From Flavobacteriaceae bacterium YJPT1-3 (GTDB taxonomy: Bacteria; Bacteroidota; Bacteroidia; Flavobacteriales; Flavobacteriaceae), in NCBI GenBank assembly GCA_029866965.1, contig CP123444.1, positions 2,087,501 to 2,151,500 of the forward strand: DNA of 64,000 nt. The letters are read 5' to 3'. Each line of letters opens with the position of its first letter. The stretch's first letter is position 1. The notes beneath the pieces were generated by a model. That model was not told where the DNA came from and did not search any database. It worked only from the letters and a program-made list of their open reading frames with translations. Position numbers and translations under genes: made by a program. Positions 1-17,215 of the stretch are shown one piece after another.

Positions 1-186
1 GAAAACACGCTGAAATACTTTACGAAGGTTCGTCTTTACCTCTCTGCGCGAAATCCATTGATATGGAAGAAATTTTCCGGATTTACACCGGAACTACCGG
101 GAGCTCCACTGGGAACCGCCGGAATTGAACTGGACGCCTATCCAACACTACGTTCATTTTATATTGGTATTAACTCCTCATTTTAG
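1..186 (+). CDS. SusC-family TonB-dependent outer-membrane receptor, C-terminal end only
   Basis: The frame starting at base 1 is open and ends with TAG at 184-186, giving about 61 residues. It ends in the pattern of SusC barrels: a run around ELDAYPTLRSFYIGINSSF with a terminal aromatic residue, as needed for outer-membrane insertion. SusC proteins are TonB-dependent barrels that import oligosaccharides with a SusD lid. The start lies outside the window. The next gene begins one base after this stop and encodes SusD, which supports the call. Substrate cannot be read from this fragment. Confidence 0.85.
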   Translation, partial: ENTLKYFTKVRLYLSARNPLIWKKFSGFTPELPGAPLGTAGIELDAYPTLRSFYIGINSSF

Positions 187-187
187 C

Positions 188-1633
188 ATGATTATGAAAA
201 CAGAAAGCCTACAAAAAATTACAATTCTGCTCTTATCTGTAGCTCTTAGCGGCTTCTTAGGATGCAGTGAAGAATTTATCGATGTCGAGTCCAACCAGGA
301 AACTGAGTCCGCAATAAGTGCCGAAAGGGCACCTGAATTAGTCAATGCGGTGTACAACAGTCTGCTTACTTGGGAAGTCAGTTCCTTCAGTTGGACAGGG
401 ATTACCAGTATCGCCTCAGACGATGCCGATAAGGGTAGTGTACCCAGCGATACTGGGGTAGATAAACACCTGCTGGATGCCCTTGAAATTTCTCCAACCA
501 TGGTCTCCGTTGGCGATGTTTGGCGCGGTCATTTTGGTGGTATTCAGCGTGCAAACCAGGCGCTGAATCGGATTGCCTTATTTGAGGAAATTGATGCTGC
601 ACTTCAAAGCAGATTGATAGGGGAGGCGAAATTTTTGCGGGCCCTCTATTATTTTCGATTAGTCCAAACCTTTGGAGGGGTGCCTATCATTACGACAATC
701 AATAGCCTGGATGACATCAATGAAACTCTTCTTACCCGGGCTACACGTGAAGAAACTTTCGCGTTCATTGAGCAGGATCTGAGAGATGCAATTGATGCGC
801 TACCCGAAAAAAGCGAATATCCTACCTCGGAATTGGGACGTGCAACTCGAGGTGCAGCAAAAACCTTACTGGCTAAGGTCTTTATGTATCAGGAAAATTG
901 GGAAGAAGTTAGAGCACTGACCAACGAGATCATAGCTTCTGGGGAGTATGGTCTGACCCCCAATTATGAGGACATTTGGAAGGAAAGCAGTGAAAACAAC
1001 ATAGAATCCATTTTCGAGATCCAGTCCCGAGGTGCTGATCCTGCAGCCGGAGTTGATAAATACAGTACCATCCAAGGCGCTCGAGGTGCTGGTGGTTGGG
1101 GCTGGGGTTTTAATACGCCATCTGCTGACTTAAATGATTCCTACGAGGAAGGTGATACGCGACGTGATGCAACCATTATGTACGCTGGAGAAACTTTATT
1201 CGATGGTCGGGAGATTAGCGCCGATGCGCCCAATCCGCGTTACAATCAAAAAGCCTATGCTAGTGAGCTAACCGAGGCTGAAATTACAGGAAAAAATGTT
1301 CGTTTATTGCGCTATGCTGAAGTGCTCCTTATGAATGCTGAAGCGGCTGCCGTGCTTGGTGGCGACGTAGCAACGCCTCTTAATCAAGTGCGCGGAAGAG
1401 CAGGACTTGCACCAGCCATTACGCCATCGCGACTGGCTGTGTGGGAAGAACGCCGCTTTGAACTGGCTTTTGAACACGACCGCTACTTTGACTTGGTGCG
1501 TCAGGGAAGGGCACAAGAAGTACTCAATGCCAAGGGCATTCCTTTTGTTGCCGGAAAGCATGAAGTATTTCCGATACCTCAAGAACAAATCGATCTAAGT
1601 GGGGGCGTACTCACCCAAAATCCAGGATACTAA
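188..1633 (+). CDS. SusD/RagB-family glycan-binding surface lipoprotein
   Basis: SusD proteins sit on the outer face of the outer membrane, bind glycan and close over the SusC barrel. The protein begins with a lipoprotein signal peptide ending in GFLGC. It then shows SusD-typical features: DVWRGHFGGIQRANQ, the helical stretch GEAKFLRALYYFRLVQTFGGVP, and a C-terminal region with RYAEVLLMNAEAA and the ending PIPQEQIDLSGGVLTQNPGY. About 481 residues is normal for the family. Start: ATG at 188 lies one base after the SusC stop; ATG at 194 is equally possible and gives a cleaner signal peptide. It is coupled to SusC and followed 23 bases later by the glucanase gene. Confidence 0.92.
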   Translation: MIMKTESLQKITILLLSVALSGFLGCSEEFIDVESNQETESAISAERAPELVNAVYNSLLTWEVSSFSWTGITSIASDDADKGSVPSDTGVDKHLLDALEISPTMVSVGDVWRGHFGGIQRANQALNRIALFEEIDAALQSRLIGEAKFLRALYYFRLVQTFGGVPIITTINSLDDINETLLTRATREETFAFIEQDLRDAIDALPEKSEYPTSELGRATRGAAKTLLAKVFMYQENWEEVRALTNEIIASGEYGLTPNYEDIWKESSENNIESIFEIQSRGADPAAGVDKYSTIQGARGAGGWGWGFNTPSADLNDSYEEGDTRRDATIMYAGETLFDGREISADAPNPRYNQKAYASELTEAEITGKNVRLLRYAEVLLMNAEAAAVLGGDVATPLNQVRGRAGLAPAITPSRLAVWEERRFELAFEHDRYFDLVRQGRAQEVLNAKGIPFVAGKHEVFPIPQEQIDLSGGVLTQNPGY

Positions 1634-1656: not shown

Positions 1657-3027
1657 ATGATAGCTTTTCTAAGAATCTTACAGATGAATACATTTTATAC
1701 CTGCCTTGCTTTGATCTTTCTTACGGTCAGCGGATGCTCTGATGACGAAATTGCACCACCTCCGCCAGACGTAGGCTTTATCGAAGAGTCTAATGTAGAA
1801 ACACTGCCCCTCGAAAAGTTACTGGATACGGTACAGCGGCAAACCTTCCGCTATTTTTGGGAATTTGCAGAGCCCAATAGCGGTTTGGCCAGAGAGCGAT
1901 CTCAAGAAGATGCTTTAGGTGGAGAATCCAGAAATATTGTGACCATCGGAGGATCTGGTTTTGGAATTTCGTGTTTTCCTGCGGCGGTGGAACGAGGCTG
2001 GATCAGCCGAAACGATGCTATAGCCAGGCTGGAAAAAATACTCAACTTCTTAGAAAATGCGCAGACCTATAATGGAGTGTTTTCACATTGGTATTTTGGA
2101 GACAGTGGAGTAACTAGACCATTCAGTCCGCTAGATGATGGAGGAGACCTGGTAGAAACAGCATTTCTGATACAGGGCTTACTCATTAATCGTCAGTATT
2201 TCTCGGGAGACAACGCAGAAGAAGCGTCGCTTCGGGATCGGATCACGTCGATTTGGGAGGCCGTAGAATGGGATTTTCATGAGCGAGGTCAAAATGTATT
2301 GACCTGGCATTGGTCGCCGGCGAATGAATTTGCAATTGACCTTCAGATTCAAGGTTGGAATGAAGGCTTGATTGTCTACGTATTGGCGGCTTCTTCACCC
2401 ACGCACCCTATCGCGAAAGAAACTTATGATAATGGTTGGGCGTCCAACGGGGGGATGGTAAACGGATCAACTTACGTAGGAACTACCCTCCCCTTAGGAG
2501 AACCTTTTGGAGGACCTCTTTTCTTTGCTCATTATTCATTCATTGGACTTGATCCTACCAATCTGAGTGATCGATATGCCTCTTATTTTGAGCAGAATCG
2601 CAACCATTCCTTGATCAATTATGAATACTGCCGAAATAATCCTAACGGTTATCGGGGCTATAGTGAAGAATCCTGGGGTCTTACGGCAAGTGATAACTAT
2701 CAAGGATACTCTGCGCACAGTCCTACCAATGATCTGGGAGTGATAACACCAACCGCAGCCTTGTCCTCTTTTCCTTTTACACCAGAGCAATCACAGCAGG
2801 CATTAGAGCATTTTTATTACGATAAAAATGAAGATCTATGGGGTCCTTATGGTTTTTACGACGCTTTTTCAGAGGAATTTAATTGGGTTGCTGATGGTTA
2901 CCTGGCTATTGACCAGGGCCCGATAGTCGCCATGATTGAAAATTATAGAACACAACTTCTATGGGACCTGTTCATGCAGGACACGGAAATCCAGCGAGGT
3001 CTGGATAGATTGGAGTTTAATTATTAA
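1657..3027 (+). CDS. GH144-type (glucoamylase-like family) beta-glucanase lipoprotein
   Basis: The protein has a lipoprotein signal ending in TVSGC and then a single alpha-helical barrel domain. Its motifs are those of the glucoamylase-like family (PF10091), which includes GH144 endo-beta-1,2-glucanases: QTFRYFWEFAEPNSGLARER, GGSGFGISCFPAAVERGW, VFSHWYFGD, GGDLVETAFLIQGLL and the late YLAIDQGPIVAMIENYR. About 456 residues suits the family. The ATG at 1657 has an A-rich upstream typical of the group; an internal ATG at 1684 would give a shorter signal peptide. It lies between SusD and a GH3 enzyme, so a periplasmic or surface endo-acting role on a beta-glucan is inferred. The exact linkage is not readable from sequence alone. 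Confidence 0.82.
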   Translation: MIAFLRILQMNTFYTCLALIFLTVSGCSDDEIAPPPPDVGFIEESNVETLPLEKLLDTVQRQTFRYFWEFAEPNSGLARERSQEDALGGESRNIVTIGGSGFGISCFPAAVERGWISRNDAIARLEKILNFLENAQTYNGVFSHWYFGDSGVTRPFSPLDDGGDLVETAFLIQGLLINRQYFSGDNAEEASLRDRITSIWEAVEWDFHERGQNVLTWHWSPANEFAIDLQIQGWNEGLIVYVLAASSPTHPIAKETYDNGWASNGGMVNGSTYVGTTLPLGEPFGGPLFFAHYSFIGLDPTNLSDRYASYFEQNRNHSLINYEYCRNNPNGYRGYSEESWGLTASDNYQGYSAHSPTNDLGVITPTAALSSFPFTPEQSQQALEHFYYDKNEDLWGPYGFYDAFSEEFNWVADGYLAIDQGPIVAMIENYRTQLLWDLFMQDTEIQRGLDRLEFNY

Positions 3028-3122
3028 TGAAATTATTCTTTTCGACCTCTAGTCGAGGCAGATAGTGGGCACTAAGCGCAGTGTCAGTGAATACAGAATA
3101 AATAAATCATCGAAAAATTCCT

Positions 3123-5384
3123 ATGCGGAAATTCATAAAAAAACCAATAAGCATTTTAATACTGCTACTTATTGCAGGAGGATTTGCCTATTCCTCTTTT
3201 CATAAACCGATACCATTAAACGAAGAGGAGATAATCAGTAAAAGAGTAGATTCTCTTATGGGTTTAATGACCTTACAAGAAAAAATCGGTCAAACGGTGC
3301 TGTATACCACGCATCAAGATGTAACCGGCCCGGTCATTGACGAGAATTATCAGAGCTATATGAAAGCAGGTGGTATTGGCGCCTTGTTCAACGCTACGGG
3401 CTCTGCGTTCACGCGAAAACTACAAAAGATCGCAGTAGAGGAAACTCGACTCGGTATTCCCCTGCTTTTTGGATATGATGTGATCCACGGTCATAAAACG
3501 ATTTTTCCTATCCCACTGGCTGAAGCATCCAGCTGGGATCTTGCATTAATGGAAGAAAGTGCACGAGTCGCGGCTCTTGAGGCTTCTGCTGAAGGTCTGC
3601 ACTGGACCTTTGCACCCATGATAGATGTCGCTCGTGATCCGCGCTGGGGTCGAGTAGCAGAGGGCACAGGAGAAGATCCGTATCTCTGTACTGAAATAGC
3701 CAAAGCCAGAGTACGTGGTTTTCAAGGCGACGATCTAAGCCATCCTAATACAATACTGGCTTGTGCAAAGCATTTTGTTGCCTATGGAGCAGCTCAGGCG
3801 GGTCGCGATTACCATACGGTTGATATTTCAGAGAATACCCTCCATAATGTATATCTGCCTCCTTTCAAAGCGGCAGTCGACGAAGGAGTAGCTACGATTA
3901 TGACTTCGTTCAATGAACTCAACGGGGTTCCGGCAACAGGAAATAAATATTTGCTCACTGACATACTCCGGGACTCGTGGAATTTTAATGGTTTTGTAGT
4001 TACTGACTATACTTCAATTAACGAAATGGTTCCCCATGGTTACGCCAGAGATCTAAAGCATGCCGGAGAATTAGCTATGAATGCAGGAGTCGACATGGAC
4101 CTGCAAGGCGGAGTGTATCGCACCGAAATGGAAAAGTCCATTCAAGAAGGTACAATTTCAAAGCAGCGACTGGACGACGCGGTTCGTGCCATCCTGACCT
4201 TAAAATATAAACTGGGTCTTTTTGACGATCCCTACAAATATTGCCAGGAAGAGCTGGAAAAAACTGTTGTACTGAGTCAGGAACATCTGAATAAGGCTAG
4301 AGATGCTGCTCGAAAATCAATGGTTTTATTAAAAAACGAAAATCAGGTCCTACCGCTGAAGGCAGATGCAAAGATCGCATTAATCGGACCCCTCGCTTCC
4401 GATGAATATCACATACTAGGAAATTGGATTGCTCGCGGAGATCGTGATGGGACGGCTGTTTCAGTCAAAGAGGGTCTAGAATCTAGAAACATCAACTTTT
4501 CTTACGCTAAAGGCTGCGAAATTGATGAAGACAACAGTTCCGGGTTTAAGGAGGCTGTAGCTGTGGCCAAAAAATCAGATGTAGTCGTCATGGTGTTGGG
4601 AGAATCAGAGCGTATGAGTGGGGAAGCCGCAAGTCGCACGAGTATACGGCTTCCAGGCAAGCAGTCTGAACTGATAACAGCCTTAAAAAAAACCGGGAAG
4701 CCCCTGGTATTTGTGCTGATGAACGGTCGACCCCTTGATTTATCCTCAGAAGAGCCTCAGGTTGATGCCATTCTGGAATCATGGTTCCCCGGGACCAGCG
4801 GTGGTCATGCTATTGCCGATGTACTCTACGGAGATTATAATCCATCGGGCAAGTTAACAGTAACGTTTCCTATGAACATCGGTCAAGTACCTATTTACTA
4901 CAATATGAAAAATACGGGTCGTCCTGCCTATGTCGAGGGCGCCAATGAACGTTACACCTCTAAATATATAGATGCTCCCAATAAGCCGATGTACCCTTTT
5001 GGATATGGATTGAGCTACACCACTTTTGAGTATGGAAAGGTCAGGCTTAGTGAAGAGGTTCTAACCGATGGATCCAGTATCGTAGCCAGTGTTGAGGTGC
5101 GCAATACCGGTGACCGGGATGGGGAAGAAGTGGTTCAATTGTATGTATCGGACGTGGTAGGCAGTATCACCAGGCCCGTGAAAGAACTTAAAGGATTTCA
5201 AAAAATTCATTTGAATAAGGGAGAGTCAAAGATGGTGAGCTTCGAGATCACTGCAGATGACCTCAAGTTTTATAAGCATGACTCAGGATTTATCAATGAA
5301 GAGGGCAAGTACGAGCTCTTTGTGGCAGGGAGCTCAGATCATGCGTTCACCCATACTTTTCAATTCAAATTTGAAAGTTTATAA
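3123..5384 (+). CDS. bglX: GH3 beta-glucosidase (BglX-like), exported
   Basis: This enzyme removes terminal beta-linked glucose from oligosaccharides. It starts with a signal or membrane segment (ILILLLIAGGFAYSSF). It then has a GH3 N-terminal barrel (FGYDVIHGHKTIFPIPLAE, APMIDVARDPRWGR, ACAKHFVAYGAAQAG), the nucleophile motif GFVVTDYTS with Asp295, a GH3 C-terminal domain (LPGKQSELI, SWFPGTSGGHAIADVL) and a fibronectin III-like domain ending near 740 (FGYGLSYTTFEYG to AGSSDHAF). About 753 residues matches E. coli BglX. It lies in the locus behind the GH144-type enzyme, so it probably finishes glucan depolymerisation in the periplasm. The 95-base gap before it shows no clear promoter. Confidence 0.93.
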   Translation: MRKFIKKPISILILLLIAGGFAYSSFHKPIPLNEEEIISKRVDSLMGLMTLQEKIGQTVLYTTHQDVTGPVIDENYQSYMKAGGIGALFNATGSAFTRKLQKIAVEETRLGIPLLFGYDVIHGHKTIFPIPLAEASSWDLALMEESARVAALEASAEGLHWTFAPMIDVARDPRWGRVAEGTGEDPYLCTEIAKARVRGFQGDDLSHPNTILACAKHFVAYGAAQAGRDYHTVDISENTLHNVYLPPFKAAVDEGVATIMTSFNELNGVPATGNKYLLTDILRDSWNFNGFVVTDYTSINEMVPHGYARDLKHAGELAMNAGVDMDLQGGVYRTEMEKSIQEGTISKQRLDDAVRAILTLKYKLGLFDDPYKYCQEELEKTVVLSQEHLNKARDAARKSMVLLKNENQVLPLKADAKIALIGPLASDEYHILGNWIARGDRDGTAVSVKEGLESRNINFSYAKGCEIDEDNSSGFKEAVAVAKKSDVVVMVLGESERMSGEAASRTSIRLPGKQSELITALKKTGKPLVFVLMNGRPLDLSSEEPQVDAILESWFPGTSGGHAIADVLYGDYNPSGKLTVTFPMNIGQVPIYYNMKNTGRPAYVEGANERYTSKYIDAPNKPMYPFGYGLSYTTFEYGKVRLSEEVLTDGSSIVASVEVRNTGDRDGEEVVQLYVSDVVGSITRPVKELKGFQKIHLNKGESKMVSFEITADDLKFYKHDSGFINEEGKYELFVAGSSDHAFTHTFQFKFESL

Positions 5385-5393
5385 CGTATACCT

Positions 5394-8300
5394 ATGAAGC
5401 AATTTTTACTTTTTTTCTTCATTTTTTCAAGTTACCTGGGATTTGCTCAATGTGTAGATCCCCTATTGACCGACTTCGAGTGTGATCCACCATCTCATCC
5501 CTTCTCCGGAGGGGTGGTGGTGGAGAACATCGACAATCCATTCCCTACAGGGATCAACACCAGTGCTCGCGTGGGAAGAGCCACCGATAATGGCATGGAA
5601 GGATTCGATGCGCTGATCGTGGAGTATGGCTCCCCGATCGATCTGACGACCAATCCGATCTTCCACATGAAGGTCTACACGGAGCTAACTGCGCCCATCC
5701 CCCTGGTGGCCAAGGTGGAAGGAGGTACCACCCCGCTGGAGATTGCCGCGGAGATTGCCGTTTCGGATCAGTGGAGTGAATACACCTTTGACTTTAGCTC
5801 AGTGGCCGATAGTGGTAACACCCGATTGGTGGTGTTCTTTAATTTTGGCGCTACCGATGGTACGACTACCGATCTGTACTACATAGACGATTTATTCTTT
5901 GGTCCGGCGCCCACGCGTTGTGAGGATCCAATACTTACCGACTTCGAGTGTGATCTGCCATCTCACCCCTTCTCCGGAGGGGTGGTGGTGGAGAACATCG
6001 ACAATCCATTCCCTACGGGGATTAACACCAGCTCTCGCGTGGGAAGAGCCACCGATAATGGTACGGAAGGATTCGATGCGCTGATCGTGGAGTATGGCTC
6101 CCCGATCGATCTGACGACCAATCCGATCTTCCACATGAAGGTCTACACAGAACTAACTGTGCCCATCCCCCTGGTGGCCAAGGTGGAAGGAGGTACCACC
6201 CCGCTGGAGATTGCCGCGGAGATTGCGGTATCGGATCAGTGGAGTGAATACACCTTTGATTTTAGCTCAGTGGCCGATCAGGGTAACACCCGATTGGTGG
6301 TATTCTTTAATTTCGGTGCTACCGATGGTACAACTACCGATCTGTACTACATAGACGATTTATTCTTTGGTCCGGCGCCCACGCGTTGTGAGGATCCGAT
6401 ACTTACCGACTTCGAGTGTGATCTGCCATCTCATCCCTTCTCCGGAGGGGTGGTGGTGGAGAACATCGACAACCCATTCCCTACGGGGATCAATACCAGT
6501 GCCCGAGTTGGAAGAGCCACCGATAATGGCACGGAAGGATTCGATGCGCTGATCGTGGAGTATGGCTCCCCGATCGATCTGACGACCAATCCGATCTTCC
6601 ACATGAAGGTCTACACGGAGCTAACTGCGCCCATCCCCCTGGTGGCCAAGGTGGAAGGAGGTACCACCCCGCTGGAGATTGCCGCGGAGATTGCCGTTTC
6701 GGATCAGTGGAGTGAATACACCTTTGACTTTAGCTCAGTGGCCGATAGTGGTAACACCCGATTGGTGGTGTTCTTTAATTTTGGCGCTACCGATGGTACG
6801 ACTACCGATCTGTACTACATAGACGATTTATTCTTTGGTCCGGCGCCCACGCGTTGTGAGGATCCAATACTTACCGACTTCGAGTGTGATCTGCCATCTC
6901 ACCCCTTCTCCGGAGGGGTGGTGGTGGAGAACATCGACAATCCATTCCCTACGGGGATCAATACCAGTGCCCGAGTTGGAAGAGCCACCGATAATGGCAC
7001 GGAAGCCTTCGATGCGCTCATTTCCGATTACGGTATGCCGATCGATCTGACGACCAATCCGGTGTTCCACATCAAGGTTTATACGGAAGGGACCACACCA
7101 ATTCCTTTTGCTGTGAAGGTAGAGGGAGGTACCACCCCGCTGGAGATAGGTACAGAGATCGATGTTTCTAACCAGTGGAAGGAATACACCTTTGACTTTA
7201 GCTCGGTGGCCGATCAGGGTAATACCACCCTGGTGCTCTTCTTCAACGCTGGAGCCACTGACGGTACGACTACCGATCTGTACTACATAGACGATTTATT
7301 CTTTGGTCCGGCGCCCACGCGTTGTGAGGATCCTGTTTTGACCGACTTCGAGTGTGATCTGCCATCTCATCCCTTCTCCGGAGGGGTGGTGGTGGAGAAC
7401 ATCGACAACCCTTTTGCGGGAGGGATCAACACCAGTGCCCGAGTGGGAAGAGCTACCGATAACGGTACAGAAGGATTCGATGCGCTCATTTCCGATTACG
7501 GTATGCCGATCGATCTGACGACCAATCCGGTGTTCCACATCAAAGTTTATACGGAAGGTGCCACACCGATTCCTTTTGCTGTGAAGGTCGAGGGAGGTAC
7601 CACCCCGCTGGAGATAGGTACAGAGATCGATGTTTCTAACGATTGGAAGGAATACACCTTTGACTTTAGCTCGGTGGCCGATCAGGGTAATACCACCCTG
7701 GTGCTCTTCTTCAACGCAGGAGCCACTGACGGAACGACTACCGATCTGTACTACATAGACGATTTATTCTTTGGTCCGGCGCCCTCGCGCTGTGAGGATC
7801 CGATACTTACCGACTTCGAGTGTGATCTGCCGTCTCATCCCTTCTCCGGAGGGGTAGTGGTGGAGAACATCGACAACCCTTTTGCGGGAGGGATCAACAC
7901 CAGCTCTCGCGTGGGAAGAGCCACCGATAATGGTACGGAAGCTTTCGATGCGCTCATTTCCGATTACGGTATGCCGATCGATCTGACGACCAATCCGGTG
8001 TTCCACATCAAAGTTTATACGGAAGGTGCCACACCGATTCCTTTTGCTGTGAAGGTCGAGGGAGGCACCACCCCGCTGGAGATAGGTACAGAGATCGATG
8101 TTTCTAACCAGTGGAAGGAGTACACCTTTGACTTTAGCTCAGTGGCCGATCAGGGTAACACCACCCTGGTGCTCTTCTTCAACGCAGGAGCCACTGACGG
8201 AACGACTACCGATCTGTACTACATAGACGATTTATTCTTTGGTCCAGCGCCCACGCGTTGTGAGGATCCAATACTTACCGACTTCGAGTGTGATCTGCCG

Positions 8301-10859
8301 TCTCATCCCTTCTCCGGAGGGGTAGTGGTGGAGAACATCGACAATCCTTTTGCGGGAGGGATCAACACCAGCTCTCGCGTGGGAAGAGCCACCGATAATG
8401 GTACGGAAGCTTTCGATGCGCTCATTTCCGATTACGGTATGCCGATCGATCTGACGACCAATCCGGTGTTCCACATCAAAGTTTATACGGAAGGGACCAC
8501 ACCAATTCCTTTTGCTGTGAAGGTAGAGGGAGGCACCACACCGCTAGAGATAGGTACAGAGATCGATGTTTCTAACCAGTGGAAGGAATACACCTTTGAC
8601 TTTAGCTCGGTGGCCGATCAGGGTAACACCACCCTGGTGCTCTTCTTCAATGCTGGAGCCACAGACGGAACGACTACCGATCTGTACTACATAGACGATC
8701 TATTCTTTGGTCCGGCGCCCTCGCGCTGTGAGGATCCGATACTTACCGACTTCGAGTGTGATCTGCCATCTCATCCCTTCTCCGGAGGGGTGGTGGTGGA
8801 GAACATCGACAATCCTTTTGCGGGAGGGATCAACACCAGCGCCCGAGTGGGAAGAGCTACCGATAACGGTACGGAAGGATTCGATGCGCTCATTTCCGAT
8901 TACGGTATGCCGATCGATCTGACGACCAATCCGGTGTTCCACATCAAAGTTTATACGGAAGGGACCACACCAATTCCTTTTGCCGTGAAGGTAGAGGGAG
9001 GTACCACACCGCTGGAGATAGGTACAGAGATCGATGTCTCTAACGATTGGAAGGAATACACTTTTGACTTTAGTTCGGTGGCCGATCAGGGTAATACCAC
9101 CCTGGTGCTCTTCTTCAACGCTGGAGCCACTGACGGAACGACTACCGATCTGTACTACATAGACGATCTATTCTTTGGTCCGGCGCCCTCGCGTTGTGAG
9201 GATCCAATACTTACCGACTTCGAGTGTGATCTGCCGTCTCATCCCTTCTCCGGAGGGGTAGTGGTGGAGAACATCGACAATCCATTCCCTACGGGGATCA
9301 ATACCAGTGCCCGAGTTGGAAGAGCCACCGATAATGGCACGGAAGGATTCGATGCGCTCATTTCCGATTACGGTATGCCGATCGATCTGACGACCAATCC
9401 GGTGTTCCATATCAAAGTTTACACGGAAGGGACCACACCAATTCCTTTTGCTGTGAAGGTAGAGGGAGGCACCACCCCGCTGGAGATAGGTACAGAGATC
9501 GATGTTTCTAACCAGTGGAAGGAATACACCTTTGACTTTAGCTCGGTGGCCGATCAGGGTAATACCACCCTGGTGCTCTTCTTCAACGCTGGAGCCACTG
9601 ACGGTACGACTACCGATCTGTACTACATAGACGATTTATTCTTTGGTCCGGCGCCCTCGCGTTGTGAGGATCCTATACTTACCGACTTCGAGTGTGATCT
9701 GCCGTCTCATCCCTTCTCCGGAGGGGTGGTGGTGGAGAACATCGACAACCCTTTTGCGGGAGGGATCAACACCAGCTCTCGCGTGGGAAGAGCCACCGAT
9801 AATGGTACGGAAGCTTTCGATGCGCTCATTTCCGATTACGGTATGCCGATCGATCTGACGACCAATCCGGTGTTCCACATCAAAGTTTATACGGAAGGGA
9901 CCACACCAATTCCTTTTGCCGTGAAGGTAGAGGGAGGTACCACCCCGCTGGAGATAGGTACAGAGATCGATGTTTCTAACCAGTGGAAGGAATACACCTT
10001 CGACTTTAGCTCGGTGGCTGATCAGGGTAATACCACCCTGGTGCTCTTCTTCAACGCTGGAGCCACTGACGGTACGACTACCGATCTGTACTACATAGAC
10101 GATTTATTCTTTGGTCCGGCGCCCACGCGTTGTGAGGATCCAATACTTACCGACTTCGAGTGTGATCTGCCGTCTCATCCTATTTCAGGAGCTATTACTC
10201 GAGTTCCAAATCCATTTATCGAGGGAATAAACTTAAGTGAAAACGTGGGTGAATATGTGGATGACGGTTCGGATCCTTTTGACAATGTCTCATTCGCTTA
10301 TGAAATGCCAATCGACCTGACAGTTTATAATATTCTCAAATTGAAAGTGTACACGACTCAAACTACCAACTTGTTGGTCAAACTGGAAAACGGAACTTCT
10401 GTTCCGGCGGAGCGTGGGAATATTGGGGATAATGGTGACAATATTGATGTAACCAATGCCTGGACTGAATATGAATTCGACTTCAGTGATCAAGCGGGAG
10501 AAAATCATCAGCGACTGGTACTCTTTTTTAACGCAGGAAATACCCAAGCTGATCCGGAAACATTTTACATTGATGATCTACGATGGGAAGCCAGTACATT
10601 AGCTATTGAGGATGTGGAGCAAGAAAATCAGCTGTACGTGTATCCTAATCCTGTAGTGGATCAAATAAAAATTTTCACGACCACCGAGATTGAAACTTTC
10701 GAGATCTATGATTTGACCGGAAGAGTGATTCTTCAGGGAGGAAAGACAGCAGAATCGTCGGTGAATGTCATAGATGCTTCATCGCTGAACAGTGGAATTT
10801 ACCTATTAACTATGAAAACAGCTTCCTTTACCAAGACTATAAGAATTTTAAAGAGGTAA
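5394..10859 (+). CDS. T9SS-secreted protein with eleven tandem jelly-roll-like domains
   Basis: The 1821-aa protein starts with a signal peptide ending GFAQC. It then carries eleven 156-aa domains: copies 1-10 are nearly identical and begin at bases 5451, 5919, 6387, 6855, 7323, 7791, 8259, 8727, 9195 and 9663; copy 11 (from 10131) is diverged. Each domain has a Cys pair (CEDPILTDFEC), a strand-rich body, EYTFDFSS, TLVLFFNAGATDG and the ending DLYYIDDLFF, the usual look of a jelly-roll carbohydrate-binding module. The last 75 residues (LYVYPNPVVDQIKI to TKTIRILKR) are a type A T9SS sorting domain, so the protein should be secreted and attached to the surface. No catalytic domain is visible. 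From its place in the locus I infer a multivalent glucan binder; I do not recognise the domain as a named family. Confidence 0.85.
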   Translation: MKQFLLFFFIFSSYLGFAQCVDPLLTDFECDPPSHPFSGGVVVENIDNPFPTGINTSARVGRATDNGMEGFDALIVEYGSPIDLTTNPIFHMKVYTELTAPIPLVAKVEGGTTPLEIAAEIAVSDQWSEYTFDFSSVADSGNTRLVVFFNFGATDGTTTDLYYIDDLFFGPAPTRCEDPILTDFECDLPSHPFSGGVVVENIDNPFPTGINTSSRVGRATDNGTEGFDALIVEYGSPIDLTTNPIFHMKVYTELTVPIPLVAKVEGGTTPLEIAAEIAVSDQWSEYTFDFSSVADQGNTRLVVFFNFGATDGTTTDLYYIDDLFFGPAPTRCEDPILTDFECDLPSHPFSGGVVVENIDNPFPTGINTSARVGRATDNGTEGFDALIVEYGSPIDLTTNPIFHMKVYTELTAPIPLVAKVEGGTTPLEIAAEIAVSDQWSEYTFDFSSVADSGNTRLVVFFNFGATDGTTTDLYYIDDLFFGPAPTRCEDPILTDFECDLPSHPFSGGVVVENIDNPFPTGINTSARVGRATDNGTEAFDALISDYGMPIDLTTNPVFHIKVYTEGTTPIPFAVKVEGGTTPLEIGTEIDVSNQWKEYTFDFSSVADQGNTTLVLFFNAGATDGTTTDLYYIDDLFFGPAPTRCEDPVLTDFECDLPSHPFSGGVVVENIDNPFAGGINTSARVGRATDNGTEGFDALISDYGMPIDLTTNPVFHIKVYTEGATPIPFAVKVEGGTTPLEIGTEIDVSNDWKEYTFDFSSVADQGNTTLVLFFNAGATDGTTTDLYYIDDLFFGPAPSRCEDPILTDFECDLPSHPFSGGVVVENIDNPFAGGINTSSRVGRATDNGTEAFDALISDYGMPIDLTTNPVFHIKVYTEGATPIPFAVKVEGGTTPLEIGTEIDVSNQWKEYTFDFSSVADQGNTTLVLFFNAGATDGTTTDLYYIDDLFFGPAPTRCEDPILTDFECDLPSHPFSGGVVVENIDNPFAGGINTSSRVGRATDNGTEAFDALISDYGMPIDLTTNPVFHIKVYTEGTTPIPFAVKVEGGTTPLEIGTEIDVSNQWKEYTFDFSSVADQGNTTLVLFFNAGATDGTTTDLYYIDDLFFGPAPSRCEDPILTDFECDLPSHPFSGGVVVENIDNPFAGGINTSARVGRATDNGTEGFDALISDYGMPIDLTTNPVFHIKVYTEGTTPIPFAVKVEGGTTPLEIGTEIDVSNDWKEYTFDFSSVADQGNTTLVLFFNAGATDGTTTDLYYIDDLFFGPAPSRCEDPILTDFECDLPSHPFSGGVVVENIDNPFPTGINTSARVGRATDNGTEGFDALISDYGMPIDLTTNPVFHIKVYTEGTTPIPFAVKVEGGTTPLEIGTEIDVSNQWKEYTFDFSSVADQGNTTLVLFFNAGATDGTTTDLYYIDDLFFGPAPSRCEDPILTDFECDLPSHPFSGGVVVENIDNPFAGGINTSSRVGRATDNGTEAFDALISDYGMPIDLTTNPVFHIKVYTEGTTPIPFAVKVEGGTTPLEIGTEIDVSNQWKEYTFDFSSVADQGNTTLVLFFNAGATDGTTTDLYYIDDLFFGPAPTRCEDPILTDFECDLPSHPISGAITRVPNPFIEGINLSENVGEYVDDGSDPFDNVSFAYEMPIDLTVYNILKLKVYTTQTTNLLVKLENGTSVPAERGNIGDNGDNIDVTNAWTEYEFDFSDQAGENHQRLVLFFNAGNTQADPETFYIDDLRWEASTLAIEDVEQENQLYVYPNPVVDQIKIFTTTEIETFEIYDLTGRVILQGGKTAESSVNVIDASSLNSGIYLLTMKTASFTKTIRILKR
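5451..10130 (+). repeat. Ten tandem 468-bp coding repeats
   Basis: Ten units of exactly 468 bp (156 codons) follow each other with no spacers and are nearly identical at DNA level. Two subtypes occur. Units 1-3 read LIVEYGSPIDL and VADSGNTRLVVFFNFG (unit 2 has VADQG). Units 5-10 read LISDYGMPIDL and VADQGNTTLVLFFNAG. Unit 4 joins a first third like unit 3 to a type-two remainder. Local variants (PFPTG or PFAGG; SARVG or SSRVG; EGFDAL or EAFDAL; APTRC or APSRC) are shuffled between units. This is the mark of unequal crossing-over or gene conversion. Copy number could be mis-assembled. Confidence 0.95.
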
Positions 10860-10884
10860 GGGGAGCGCAATAAAAATCGAAACA

Positions 10885-12897
10885 ATGAAAAGTTTACTTA
10901 GACTGAAATACGTATGCTTAGGATTGATACTCTTCTTTGGGGCTTCATGTACCGAAGAACTTCAAGAGTTTGACCTTTTGGTCACCGTACCCTGCGAAGA
11001 TCCCGATACCACGGTTGATCCATTGATTGTTTCTGATTTTGAGTGTCAGGACAACGTGAATATTGAAGGCGTTGAAGTGGTACGCAATCCAACGGAAACC
11101 GGAATAAATACGTCTACTTTTGTAGGGGTCTATACCGACCAGGCGAGTCCGACGGATGGTATTACTATCAATTTTGGAACTATAAATCTTGAAGAAAATG
11201 GGCTCTTTAAATTTAAAGTGCTTACCAATATTACAGGGGATATACTCGCCCGACTTCAGGGGAGTGCCAATGCACCGGTAGAAATGCGAGTTACCGTTTT
11301 TGGAGGAGATAACTGGCAGCAGTTAGAGTTTGATTTTAGTGAGGTTGAGGCAAGTGGATATTCGCAACTCGTACTTGTTTTTAATGAAGGTATAGAAACG
11401 GTAGGTGATGATCTTTATTATATTGATGACCTTTTGTTTGAAGCACCTATTGATCCCTGTGAGGGAGTGACCACCGATTTGAGTGTGGTGAACGATTTTG
11501 ATTGTCAGCAGAATTACTTTTTAGGAGATCCTGAGGCTGCTGAAGATGCGGTTACCCTAATTGATAATCCAAATCCAGGGGGGATCAATACCAGTGCTAC
11601 GGTAGGACAATACATCGACAATGGATTAGAACCTTTTGATAACTTACTTATTGACTTTGGTGAACCCATTGATTTGAGCACCAATGCTCAATTTAATATT
11701 AAGGTGTATGCCAATGCACAGGTACCGGTCATTGCTAAGTTGGAAGGTGGAACCATGGCTGTGGAAAAGACAGCTCAGATTCAGCAAACTAATACCTGGG
11801 TAGAACTTTCATTCAATTTTACAGAAGCTCAAGGTGCAGAAAATACCAGACTGGTGCTGTTCTTCAATGCCGGAGGGACCGATGGAACTGAAAACGATGT
11901 TTACCTCATTGATGATTTGCGTTTTGTGCCCTTTGTGGACGACTGCGAGGGGGTAGAGCCTGATTTAACGATCATCAGTGATTTTGACTGCCAACAGAAC
12001 TATGCCGTAGGAGCACCCGGGGTGGTCAATCTTGTCGATAATCCTAATCCGGATGCAGTAAACATGAGCAGCGGGGTAGGAAGTTATGTAGATAACGGTA
12101 CAGAACCCTTCGATGCGCTGATCATTGATCTTGGAGGTCCTTTCGATCTCAGTGAAAATCCGGTGTTGAGTATTGATGTACTTTCCTCTAGGCAAGCGCC
12201 GCTACTAGCCAAACTAGAAGGCGGAAGCATGCCTGTAGAAATACAAGCAAATATTGACGTCGTTAATGGTTGGAGTACGTATACGTTCGACTTTTCTCAA
12301 GCCATTGGACAAGGAAATACCACCTTAGTGTTCTTCTTCAATGCCGGTCAGGATGATGGAACCACAGAAGACATCTATTACCTCGATAATATCCGTTTTG
12401 AATCTGGCGGGTGTTCGGAGATTGTAGAAAATTGTGATGGGGTAGAACCGATGCTGAATATTATCAACGACTTTGACTGTCAGATCAATTTTCCTTTTGT
12501 CGATCCTGCCAGTGCTCCTGTAGTTCAAAACCCCAATGTCAGCTGCGCGAACCGTAGTTCTAATGTAGGCGCCTATACGGATAATGGCACAGATCCCTTC
12601 AATGCATTAATCGTGAATTTTGGACAGGAAATAGACCTATCGGTAAACAATCAGCTTAAGATTAAAGTATTGTCTTCTATGGCTGCCCCGATATTGGCGA
12701 AATTGGAAGGCGGTACGGCCATCGAAATTTTTCAGGACATTACCGAAGTAGGGGAATGGGTAGAATACACCTTCGATTTTAGCAGTGCCGCCGGTGATGG
12801 TAATACCACCTTGGTTCTGTTTTTTAACGCAGGTGAAACCAATGGAACTCCGACAGATCTGTATTATATCGATGATCTTAAGTTTGAACCTATGTAG
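10885..12897 (+). CDS. Surface lipoprotein with four diverged copies of the same jelly-roll-like domain
   Basis: The 670-aa protein has a lipoprotein signal (LGLILFFGASC) and four domains of about 150-160 aa, each starting with an SDFEC, NDFDC or SDFDC-type motif and closing with LYYIDDLLFE, VYLIDDLRF, IYYLDNIRF or LYYIDDLKF. These share motifs with the 156-aa repeats of the gene before (GINTSATVG, PFDNLLIDFG, AKLEGGT, TRLVLFFNAGGTDG) but are far more diverged. It has no T9SS sorting domain, so it is probably a lipid-anchored surface glycan-binding protein in the position where SusE/SusF-type proteins usually sit. The gene follows by 25 bases and ends the locus just ahead of a strong terminator. 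Confidence 0.82.
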   Translation: MKSLLRLKYVCLGLILFFGASCTEELQEFDLLVTVPCEDPDTTVDPLIVSDFECQDNVNIEGVEVVRNPTETGINTSTFVGVYTDQASPTDGITINFGTINLEENGLFKFKVLTNITGDILARLQGSANAPVEMRVTVFGGDNWQQLEFDFSEVEASGYSQLVLVFNEGIETVGDDLYYIDDLLFEAPIDPCEGVTTDLSVVNDFDCQQNYFLGDPEAAEDAVTLIDNPNPGGINTSATVGQYIDNGLEPFDNLLIDFGEPIDLSTNAQFNIKVYANAQVPVIAKLEGGTMAVEKTAQIQQTNTWVELSFNFTEAQGAENTRLVLFFNAGGTDGTENDVYLIDDLRFVPFVDDCEGVEPDLTIISDFDCQQNYAVGAPGVVNLVDNPNPDAVNMSSGVGSYVDNGTEPFDALIIDLGGPFDLSENPVLSIDVLSSRQAPLLAKLEGGSMPVEIQANIDVVNGWSTYTFDFSQAIGQGNTTLVFFFNAGQDDGTTEDIYYLDNIRFESGGCSEIVENCDGVEPMLNIINDFDCQINFPFVDPASAPVVQNPNVSCANRSSNVGAYTDNGTDPFNALIVNFGQEIDLSVNNQLKIKVLSSMAAPILAKLEGGTAIEIFQDITEVGEWVEYTFDFSSAAGDGNTTLVLFFNAGETNGTPTDLYYIDDLKFEPM

Positions 12898-12965
12898 GGA
12901 TTTGTCTCGGTCATCTACTGTGTTTTTGTTGGCCTGAGTAAGTTTAAACTAAGTTTGTTTTTCAA

Positions 12966-13008
12966 AAGAGAAGGTGCGTATTTGTTGTTGTTGTACGCAC
13001 CTTTTCTT
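12966..13008 (+). terminator. Strong hairpin terminator closing the glucan locus
   Basis: The arms AAGGTGCGTA (12971-12980) and TACGCACCTT (12994-13003) pair perfectly around a GTTGTTG-rich loop. The stem extends outward through AAGAG/TTCTT, and a T-rich tail follows. It lies between the convergent ends of the lipoprotein gene (+) and the YtxH gene (-), so it may work in both directions. Confidence 0.85.
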
Positions 13009-13064
13009 ATTTTAATCCTAATTCATAAAAGAGGTTTTTCTCTTCTGATTATAAAGTACCTGAA

Positions 13065-13400
13065 CTAGGAACTTTTCTGAAGTCGGGCATTCTTTTTTCG
13101 AAGTGTTTCCAGACGCTCTTCCAGATTGACCATAATGTCATCTGCACGATGGCTGAGTTTATCCACCACTTCTTCCATTTTGTGTTCAAATTCTACTTTC
13201 TTCTCTGCAGCCGCTTTCGCCAAATCTTCTCGAGCGTGTTTCATCTTCTCCCCCAGATCATGTGTAGTTTCTAAGGTTTTTGCTTTGATCTTTTCTCGGG
13301 TTTTCGAACCGCGATCGGGGGCAAAGAGTACACCGAGTACTCCTCCAATTGCCGCACCGGTGAGCAGGGCATAAAATGCATTTTTGTTTGCTGTGTCCAT
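13065..13400 (-). CDS. YtxH-domain protein
   Basis: This is a 111-aa protein with one N-terminal hydrophobic segment (AFYALLTGAAIGGVLGVLFAPDRG), the YtxH signature of a glycine-rich helix followed by APxxGxxTR. The rest is a highly charged helix that is probably coiled coil (EKIKAKTLETTHDLGEKM, LEERLETLRKKNARL). Family members are small membrane-associated proteins often linked to stress responses; molecular function is unknown. Start: ATG at 13400 gives the usual MDTANKN-type start; the frame extends upstream but that extension is unlike the family. It faces the glucan locus and shares the terminator between them. Confidence 0.8.
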   Translation of the reverse strand: MDTANKNAFYALLTGAAIGGVLGVLFAPDRGSKTREKIKAKTLETTHDLGEKMKHAREDLAKAAAEKKVEFEHKMEEVVDKLSHRADDIMVNLEERLETLRKKNARLQKSS

Positions 13401-16567: not shown

Positions 16568-17215
16568 TTAATATTCTAGTTGGAAATAGTCCATAACCTC
16601 CTCATAATTGGATAGATCAAGACCTTTCTGCTCCAGTACTTTAAGGTGAGAATTTTCTGTACGCTTTCCTGAACTGGTCGAATTGACTTCGATTAGAACA
16701 ATTTTCAGCGTTTGAAGACTACCTGCACTCACGGAAAACGGCGCGTCATCTCGTTTGAATTCCATCCAAAATTGAACACGATTATTAAAATAAGTCATAT
16801 AAGTATTTATGTCTATGGGAATACCGAGAAAGACATACTGATTAGGAATTTGATACCATTCATCTCTGTTAGTTTTGAGATAAGCTAAAATCACACCTGT
16901 TTCTAAAAGTTCGAGCGTTGCTTCGTCAATAGACACTCTGTGATTATTCCCGCTTACGTCGGCGAGATCGTAAAGGATGCTGCGAACATTGGCATTGCCA
17001 TCCGCGCCGTCCTGCCCGTTAGCTCCGTCTTGACCATCGGCTCCATTAGTGCCATCCTGTCCATCAGCACCGTCTTGTCCTGGTGGACCAATTTCACCTT
17101 GTGGTCCTGGAGGGCCAACAGCTCCATCTTCTCCATCTTCTACTGAGCAGGATAATGCGAAGAGTACTCCCACGCTCAATAGAACAAGCTTGATTTTTAA
17201 TAGTCTACGTTTCAT
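16568..17215 (-). CDS. Lipoprotein with a collagen-like Gly-X-Y segment
   Basis: The signal peptide ends at FALSC (Cys23). About sixteen uninterrupted Gly-X-Y triplets follow (residues 28 to about 75), rich in GQD, GAD and GPP. The remaining 140 residues are a globular domain (RSILYDLADVSGNNHRVSI onward, ending YEEVMDYFQLEY) that I do not recognise. Bacterial collagen-like proteins form trimeric stalks on the cell surface, so a surface stalk bearing a C-terminal head is inferred. The gene lies between the OmpA-type lipoprotein and another lipoprotein in the operon; the Asp-rich triplets suggest a charge-stabilised helix. Confidence 0.78.
   Translation of the reverse strand: MKRRLLKIKLVLLSVGVLFALSCSVEDGEDGAVGPPGPQGEIGPPGQDGADGQDGTNGADGQDGANGQDGADGNANVRSILYDLADVSGNNHRVSIDEATLELLETGVILAYLKTNRDEWYQIPNQYVFLGIPIDINTYMTYFNNRVQFWMEFKRDDAPFSVSAGSLQTLKIVLIEVNSTSSGKRTENSHLKVLEQKGLDLSNYEEVMDYFQLEY

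Follow-up and report, generated by a model that had tools for sequence, protein, structure and literature searches.

X584-related carbohydrate-binding modules, most likely for beta-1,2-glucan, in a T9SS array and a predicted lipoprotein of a flavobacterial GH144 locus

In the genome of Flavobacteriaceae bacterium YJPT1-3, two adjacent genes lie behind genes for a glycoside hydrolase family 144 (GH144) enzyme and a GH3 enzyme and encode 11 and 4 copies of one domain of roughly 155 amino acids, which raises the question of what this domain is and what it would capture. We analysed the 64,000-nucleotide stretch that carries the locus (assembly GCA_029866965.1, contig CP123444.1, positions 2,087,501 to 2,151,500, forward strand), hereafter the window. 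Profile and predicted fold place the unit among the CBM4/9/22-like jelly rolls, as a diverged relative of X584, a carbohydrate-binding module (CBM) that binds laminarin. We consider it fairly probable that these modules, in a separate and mainly flavobacterial clade tied to GH144, provide multivalent surface capture, most likely of beta-1,2-glucan.

The array gene is an open reading frame at 5394-10859, with boundaries exactly as in a first-pass annotation made from the sequence alone, and its product has 1821 amino acids. The features of this gene and of the lipoprotein gene downstream are as follows.

5394..10859, + strand: predicted type IX secretion system (T9SS)-secreted array protein; 1821 amino acids with an apparent signal peptide, 11 CBM units and a type A sorting tail
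5451..6836, + strand: array units A1-A3, first sub-type; amino acid identity 95-98% mutually, 81-87% to A4-A10
6855..10112, + strand: array units A4-A10, second sub-type; mutual amino acid identity 96-100%
10131..10586, + strand: array unit A11, orthologue of the last unit in the Nonlabens two-unit and Dokdonia five-unit arrays (four-row clade in the unit tree, support 100/99)
10638..10856, + strand: T9SS type A C-terminal sorting domain; PF18962 47 bits, TIGR04183 51 bits, residues 1749-1813 of 1821
10885..12897, + strand: predicted lipoprotein of the surface-glycan-binding type; 670 amino acids, 4 CBM units, Cys22 invariant in 12 orthologues
10993..11439, + strand: lipoprotein unit B1, residues 37-185
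11458..11925, + strand: lipoprotein unit B2, residues 192-347; PF02018 E 8e-4
11944..12399, + strand: lipoprotein unit B3, residues 354-505
12433..12885, + strand: lipoprotein unit B4, residues 517-667

The array units follow a 156-residue period, beginning at residues 20, 176, 332 and onwards to 1580, and all 11 carry the start motif C-[VE]-D-P-[LIV]-L-T-D-F-E-C. The YYIDDLxF ending noted earlier appears as YYIDDLFF in ten of them, and the eleventh closes with FYIDDLRW. Units 1-10 are 81-100% identical to one another at the protein level, with unit 11 at about 50% to them, and Tandem Repeats Finder reports a 468 bp period in the array DNA (10.1 copies, 93% matches). The lipoprotein units are 38-56% identical mutually and 40-53% identical to array units 1-10. 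The cysteine pair near the unit start, which the annotation had also pointed out, falls at unit residues 1 and 11 and is invariant across the units of both window proteins. The copy number in the two genes is far beyond chance, because all 15 places in the whole genome that the unit profile matches at E<=1e-30 lie within them. Neither gene showed a catalytic domain, which confirms the 11 and 4 enzyme-free copies described before. Other weak Pfam matches of the array (DUF6655, Tox-MPTase5, DP and others) were set aside as repeat-inflated noise, being implausible families that single units did not return.

Export of the array by T9SS, also proposed earlier, is borne out by both sorting-tail models (PF18962 and TIGR04183) scoring above their cut-offs and by a SprA translocon gene (SprA_N, PF14349) in the same genome. 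The lipoprotein combines a lipobox Cys, several enzyme-free domains, and SusC and SusD upstream, an architecture of the SusE/SusF or surface glycan-binding protein (SGBP) type; its lipobox has G at -3, unlike the classical form. In a Pfam scan the SusE/SusF models gave no match and SGBP_B_XBD reached only a sub-threshold E of 0.12. Pfam thus does not support membership of the SusE/SusF family; of the earlier placement of a lipid-anchored protein in the SusE/SusF position, the probable anchor and the SGBP-like role stand. With its several domains, lack of an enzyme, predicted lipid anchor and SusC/SusD locus, it resembles the surface glycan-binding proteins of polysaccharide utilization loci (PULs; SusE/SusF and SGBP-B types), yet it is encoded after the enzymes. 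A model of the whole lipoprotein (predicted local distance difference test, pLDDT, 81.7; predicted template modelling score, pTM, 0.41) consists of repeated all-beta domains whose mutual orientation is uncertain.

Several lines of evidence bear on the identity of the domain. Both whole proteins exceed the curated cut-off of PF02018 (CBM_4_9; 25.9 bits), at 79.4 bits for the array and 43.7 bits for the lipoprotein. A profile built from ten units found one significant solved relative in the PDB, 8qx6 (E 6.8e-14, 55.5 bits, unit positions 14-122); phmmer with the whole lipoprotein gave no PDB match, and 8qx6 was reached by the unit profile only. This entry, released on 2024-09-18, is titled 'Novel laminarin-binding CBM X584', and its molecule is a PKD domain-containing protein. 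AlphaFold2 predicted one unit confidently as an all-beta sandwich of 11 strands (pLDDT 86.1, pTM 0.84). Foldseek with this model placed 8qx6_B and 8qx6_A at the top (E 1.2e-7 and 1.4e-7, TM-scores 0.72-0.74), and its further matches include exo-beta-agarase, CBM11, CBM22 and CBM4 structures. The sequence profile and the fold thus agree on the same domain. The jelly-roll fold and the kinship with carbohydrate-binding modules that had been suspected are upheld, the strong match being to a carbohydrate-binding domain and neither a non-carbohydrate match nor another fold having appeared. The description of the domain as unrecognised no longer applies, and a new fold or unknown domain is rejected by the PF02018, 8qx6 and Foldseek matches. 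We take X584 to be CBM102. Zuehlke et al. are said to have reported on CBM102 in 2024, and the laminarin SGBP of Christiangramia forsetii reportedly has four such modules with no enzyme attached.

The genes upstream bear on the ligand. The locus reads regulator, SusC, SusD, GH144, GH3, array, lipoprotein, the regulator upstream of SusC having a weak LuxR-type helix-turn-helix match, and the following features precede the two CBM genes.

125..1633, + strand: SusD-like outer-membrane lipoprotein; reading frame opens with TTG at 125, but ATG at 188 is probably the true start; PF07980 and PF14322 both exceed their cut-offs; lipobox-like SGFLGC close to the N-terminus
1657..3027, + strand: GH144 endo-beta-1,2-glucanase homologue; PF10091 260 bits; surface-lipoprotein-like N-terminus VSGC-SDDE
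3123..5384, + strand: GH3 beta-glucosidase, BglX type; PF00933, PF01915 and PF14310; NF011678 BglX 843 bits; apparent signal peptide, probably periplasmic

The GH144-type and GH3 enzymes claimed in front of the two genes are thus present. The window GH144, the only PF10091 protein in the genome, matches CpSGL (5gzh/5gzk) at E 4e-143, and its catalytic acids are conserved, D135, D139, E142 and E211 of CpSGL corresponding to D160, D164, E167 and E236. In CpSGL, E142 has been proposed as the general base, and E211 belongs to the residues used for clan superposition. The GH3 protein closely resembles the PDB entries 3u48 and 5xxl ('Periplasmic beta-glucosidase'). As far as sequence tells, the genes of a GH144 beta-1,2-glucan PUL are all here: GH144 with conserved catalytic acids, SusC/SusD and GH3. 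Against the general background of Bacteroidota export signals, the lipobox-like VSGC followed by SDDE suggests that GH144 is a surface lipoprotein. No sulfatase is present at the window locus. GH144 loci are among the frequent Bacteroidetes PULs, and marine ones have been reported with a sulfatase (PMC6499787).

We then asked how widely this arrangement is shared, using a contig scan and genome searches and counting units that lie beside GH144, GH3, SusC or SusD genes. Eighteen further loci of this kind were found, nearly all in Flavobacteriaceae (Dokdonia, Nonlabens, Aurantibacter, Tamlana, Aquimarina, Lutibacter, Polaribacter and other members) plus one in Saprospiraceae. In a sample of 301 genomes of the family, GH144 occurs in 76; close units occur in 7, in every case a few kb from GH144. 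The lipoprotein of sister loci usually has 4 units. Array length varies. Nonlabens, Tamlana, Aurantibacter and one metagenome-assembled genome (MAG) have two units; one Polaribacter-like genome has 2+2, and Polaribacter sp. MSW5, where the genes are fragmented, has 2+1. A Dokdonia MAG has 3+2 and Dokdonia sinensis 5, while the arrays of Saprospiraceae count 6 units and that of the window 11. The distant units that we followed up (E 1e-27 to 1e-18) are located in GH16 loci, and the GH144-locus units examined had no GH16 match beside them. One GH16-linked locus lies elsewhere in the genome that carries the window (898000-914000, offsets 2306-10718). It encodes a lipoprotein of GH16, a PKD protein of 998 aa carrying three distant units and CBM_4_9 matches, another lipoprotein, and a product whose match to a GH2-type TIM barrel is weak.

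The other Flavobacteriaceae GH144 loci examined share SusC/SusD, GH144 and GH3 with the window, but they mostly have a lipoprotein without the unit, a Big_7 + Laminin_G_3 protein in the three scanned, and usually a tandem GH144 pair; those tested also have genes for GH43, an esterase or a sulfatase. All of these features are absent from the window locus.

Some relatives carry further T9SS proteins. In Tamlana (stretch L053:12879-14909) the protein encoded next to the lipoprotein has a T9SS tail, an F5/8C domain and a PF10091 match below threshold, and is possibly a diverged enzyme of the beta-1,2-glucanase clan. In three others (L041:6140-9451, L051:4180-6705, L099:12158-14683), T9SS proteins have 2-3 units before a large passenger region and stand beside a second unit-bearing T9SS gene; a Pfam scan of the L051 and L099 proteins matched the tail only.

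A tree of 122 units, which does not include 8qx6 itself, places the GH144-locus units, together with two Saprospiraceae units, on one side of a branch (support 100/93), apart from the GH16-locus units. Within it the units of the T9SS arrays group together as a clade (98/98), and lipoprotein unit 1 has orthologues in most loci. Alignment by locus type shows the Cys pair (1, 11), D46, D53 and an aromatic at 111 to be nearly invariant in the GH144 clade. In most of the X584-like GH16-linked relatives, the Cys pair and several residues specific to the clade are missing, and those examined have no long near-identical T9SS arrays. The columns that consistently separate the clades include the Cys pair, D46, D53 and Y111, the last being mostly L in GH16-locus units. 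At position 76, GH16 units have W or Y and array units Y, whereas lipoprotein units often have L; an aromatic at position 52 (W, F or Y) is common to nearly all units. These positions are candidate specificity residues.

The window array comprises ten near-identical copies and one ancestral end unit, unit 11 clustering with the end units of shorter arrays as listed above. The amplified window units branch apart from the amplified Dokdonia units (93/31 and 100/87), which makes separate amplification or homogenisation in the two lineages likely, although the window branch is weak. A four-gamete test on units 1-10 failed for 989 of 4095 informative site pairs, and the fixed differences between A1-3 and A4-10 are confined to nt 165-408 of the unit. 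Synonymous divergence (dS) amounts to about 0.16-0.20 inside a sub-type and 0.77 from one sub-type to the other, with a nonsynonymous-to-synonymous ratio (dN/dS) of 0.07-0.13. The four-gamete failures and the low dN/dS together indicate that the copies exchange sequence and stay functional, recombining under purifying selection.

Taken with the locus, the units most likely bind beta-1,2-glucan. The four-unit lipoprotein, anchored in the outer membrane, would hold glucan chains near the SusC/SusD transporter and surface GH144, which would cut the beta-1,2-glucan chains; oligosaccharides would be imported via SusC/SusD, and periplasmic GH3 would release glucose. The 11-unit protein would reach the outer cell face through T9SS, its type A tail attaching or releasing it, and may serve as a long multivalent capture arm. 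Recent unequal exchange would have raised its copy number from a two-unit ancestor, and relatives would therefore differ mainly in avidity or reach. The glucan capture proposed in general terms by the first-pass annotation fits the multivalence and the glucan-locus context, and its target is now narrowed, likely to beta-1,2-glucan, from the GH144.

Several observations weigh against this reading. Against PF02018, single units reach no more than 14-20 bits, under the cut-off, and one of four tested gave no match, so the unit is to be regarded as a diverged member of the CBM_4_9 neighbourhood; its identity to 8qx6 is a low 22-23%. The T9SS array is absent from 9 of the 18 unit-bearing sister loci, so that the 'two-tier' capture design suggested before is not general. 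A Laminin_G-type lipoprotein, a different capture module, occupies the equivalent position in other Flavobacteriaceae GH144 loci, and the unit domain is therefore not required for beta-1,2-glucan use. Finally, 8qx6, the nearest characterised relative, binds beta-1,3-glucan, and homology leaves the linkage specificity unsettled. The units might thus bind beta-1,3-glucan (laminarin) as 8qx6 does, in a locus for mixed or algal glucan in which GH144 is a secondary activity. Such a role would suit the best relative by sequence and fold being a laminarin binder and the occurrence of related units at GH16 loci throughout Flavobacteriaceae, one such locus being in this genome. We nevertheless hold it unlikely: the GH144-locus clade is separate and has its own conserved columns, its units examined are free of GH16 matches, GH144 is the sole endo-glucanase seen in the window locus, and the genome already has a separate GH16-linked locus.

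Two other explanations concern the array. Its extra copies could be a by-product of recombination, slippage or unequal exchange having inflated a two-unit protein with no functional gain, as the ten near-identical 468-bp copies, the frequent four-gamete failures, the narrow segment of sub-type differences and the lineage-specific amplification would allow. Yet all 11 copies are intact and in frame, the dS and dN/dS values imply that they have been kept for some time, and Dokdonia shows expansion as well, which makes this account improbable. T9SS commonly exports repeat adhesins, and the array, enzyme-free and variable in length, could likewise be mainly a structural adhesin or surface layer, attaching to cells, biofilm or particles, with repeats providing length; that units lie beside another large passenger region in some relatives speaks for it. 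However, the array sits between GH3 and a glycan-binding lipoprotein with the same domain, its orthologues stay in GH144 loci, and purifying selection has kept the fold residues in all copies, and we regard an adhesin as quite improbable. Capture of beta-1,2-glucan remains the reading that we favour.

The component parts are of known kinds; new, as far as could be found, are the clade tied to GH144 loci and a T9SS array that is lineage-specific. Bacteria produce beta-1,2-glucans. No beta-1,2-glucan-binding module in GH144 loci is described in the literature searched, whose partial coverage makes this weak evidence of novelty. More tentatively, and with some doubt, the GH144-linked clade may be a beta-1,2-glucan-specific CBM subfamily diverged from laminarin binders, whose capture flavobacteria tune by amplifying units into T9SS-exported arrays. 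The locus offers a direct test of a change of binding-module linkage from beta-1,3 to beta-1,2, and the natural series of array lengths (0, 2, 5 and 11 units) is suited to asking whether T9SS-exported multivalence aids scavenging.

A promoter and terminator scan of 12850-13100 found nothing. Elsewhere in the window, 16568-17215 on the - strand encodes a predicted lipoprotein with a collagen-like GPPGPQGEIGPPGQDGADGQDG stretch. One Saprospiraceae contig carries two loci of identical gene layout (GH144, six-unit T9SS array, GH3, SusC/D) in opposite orientation.

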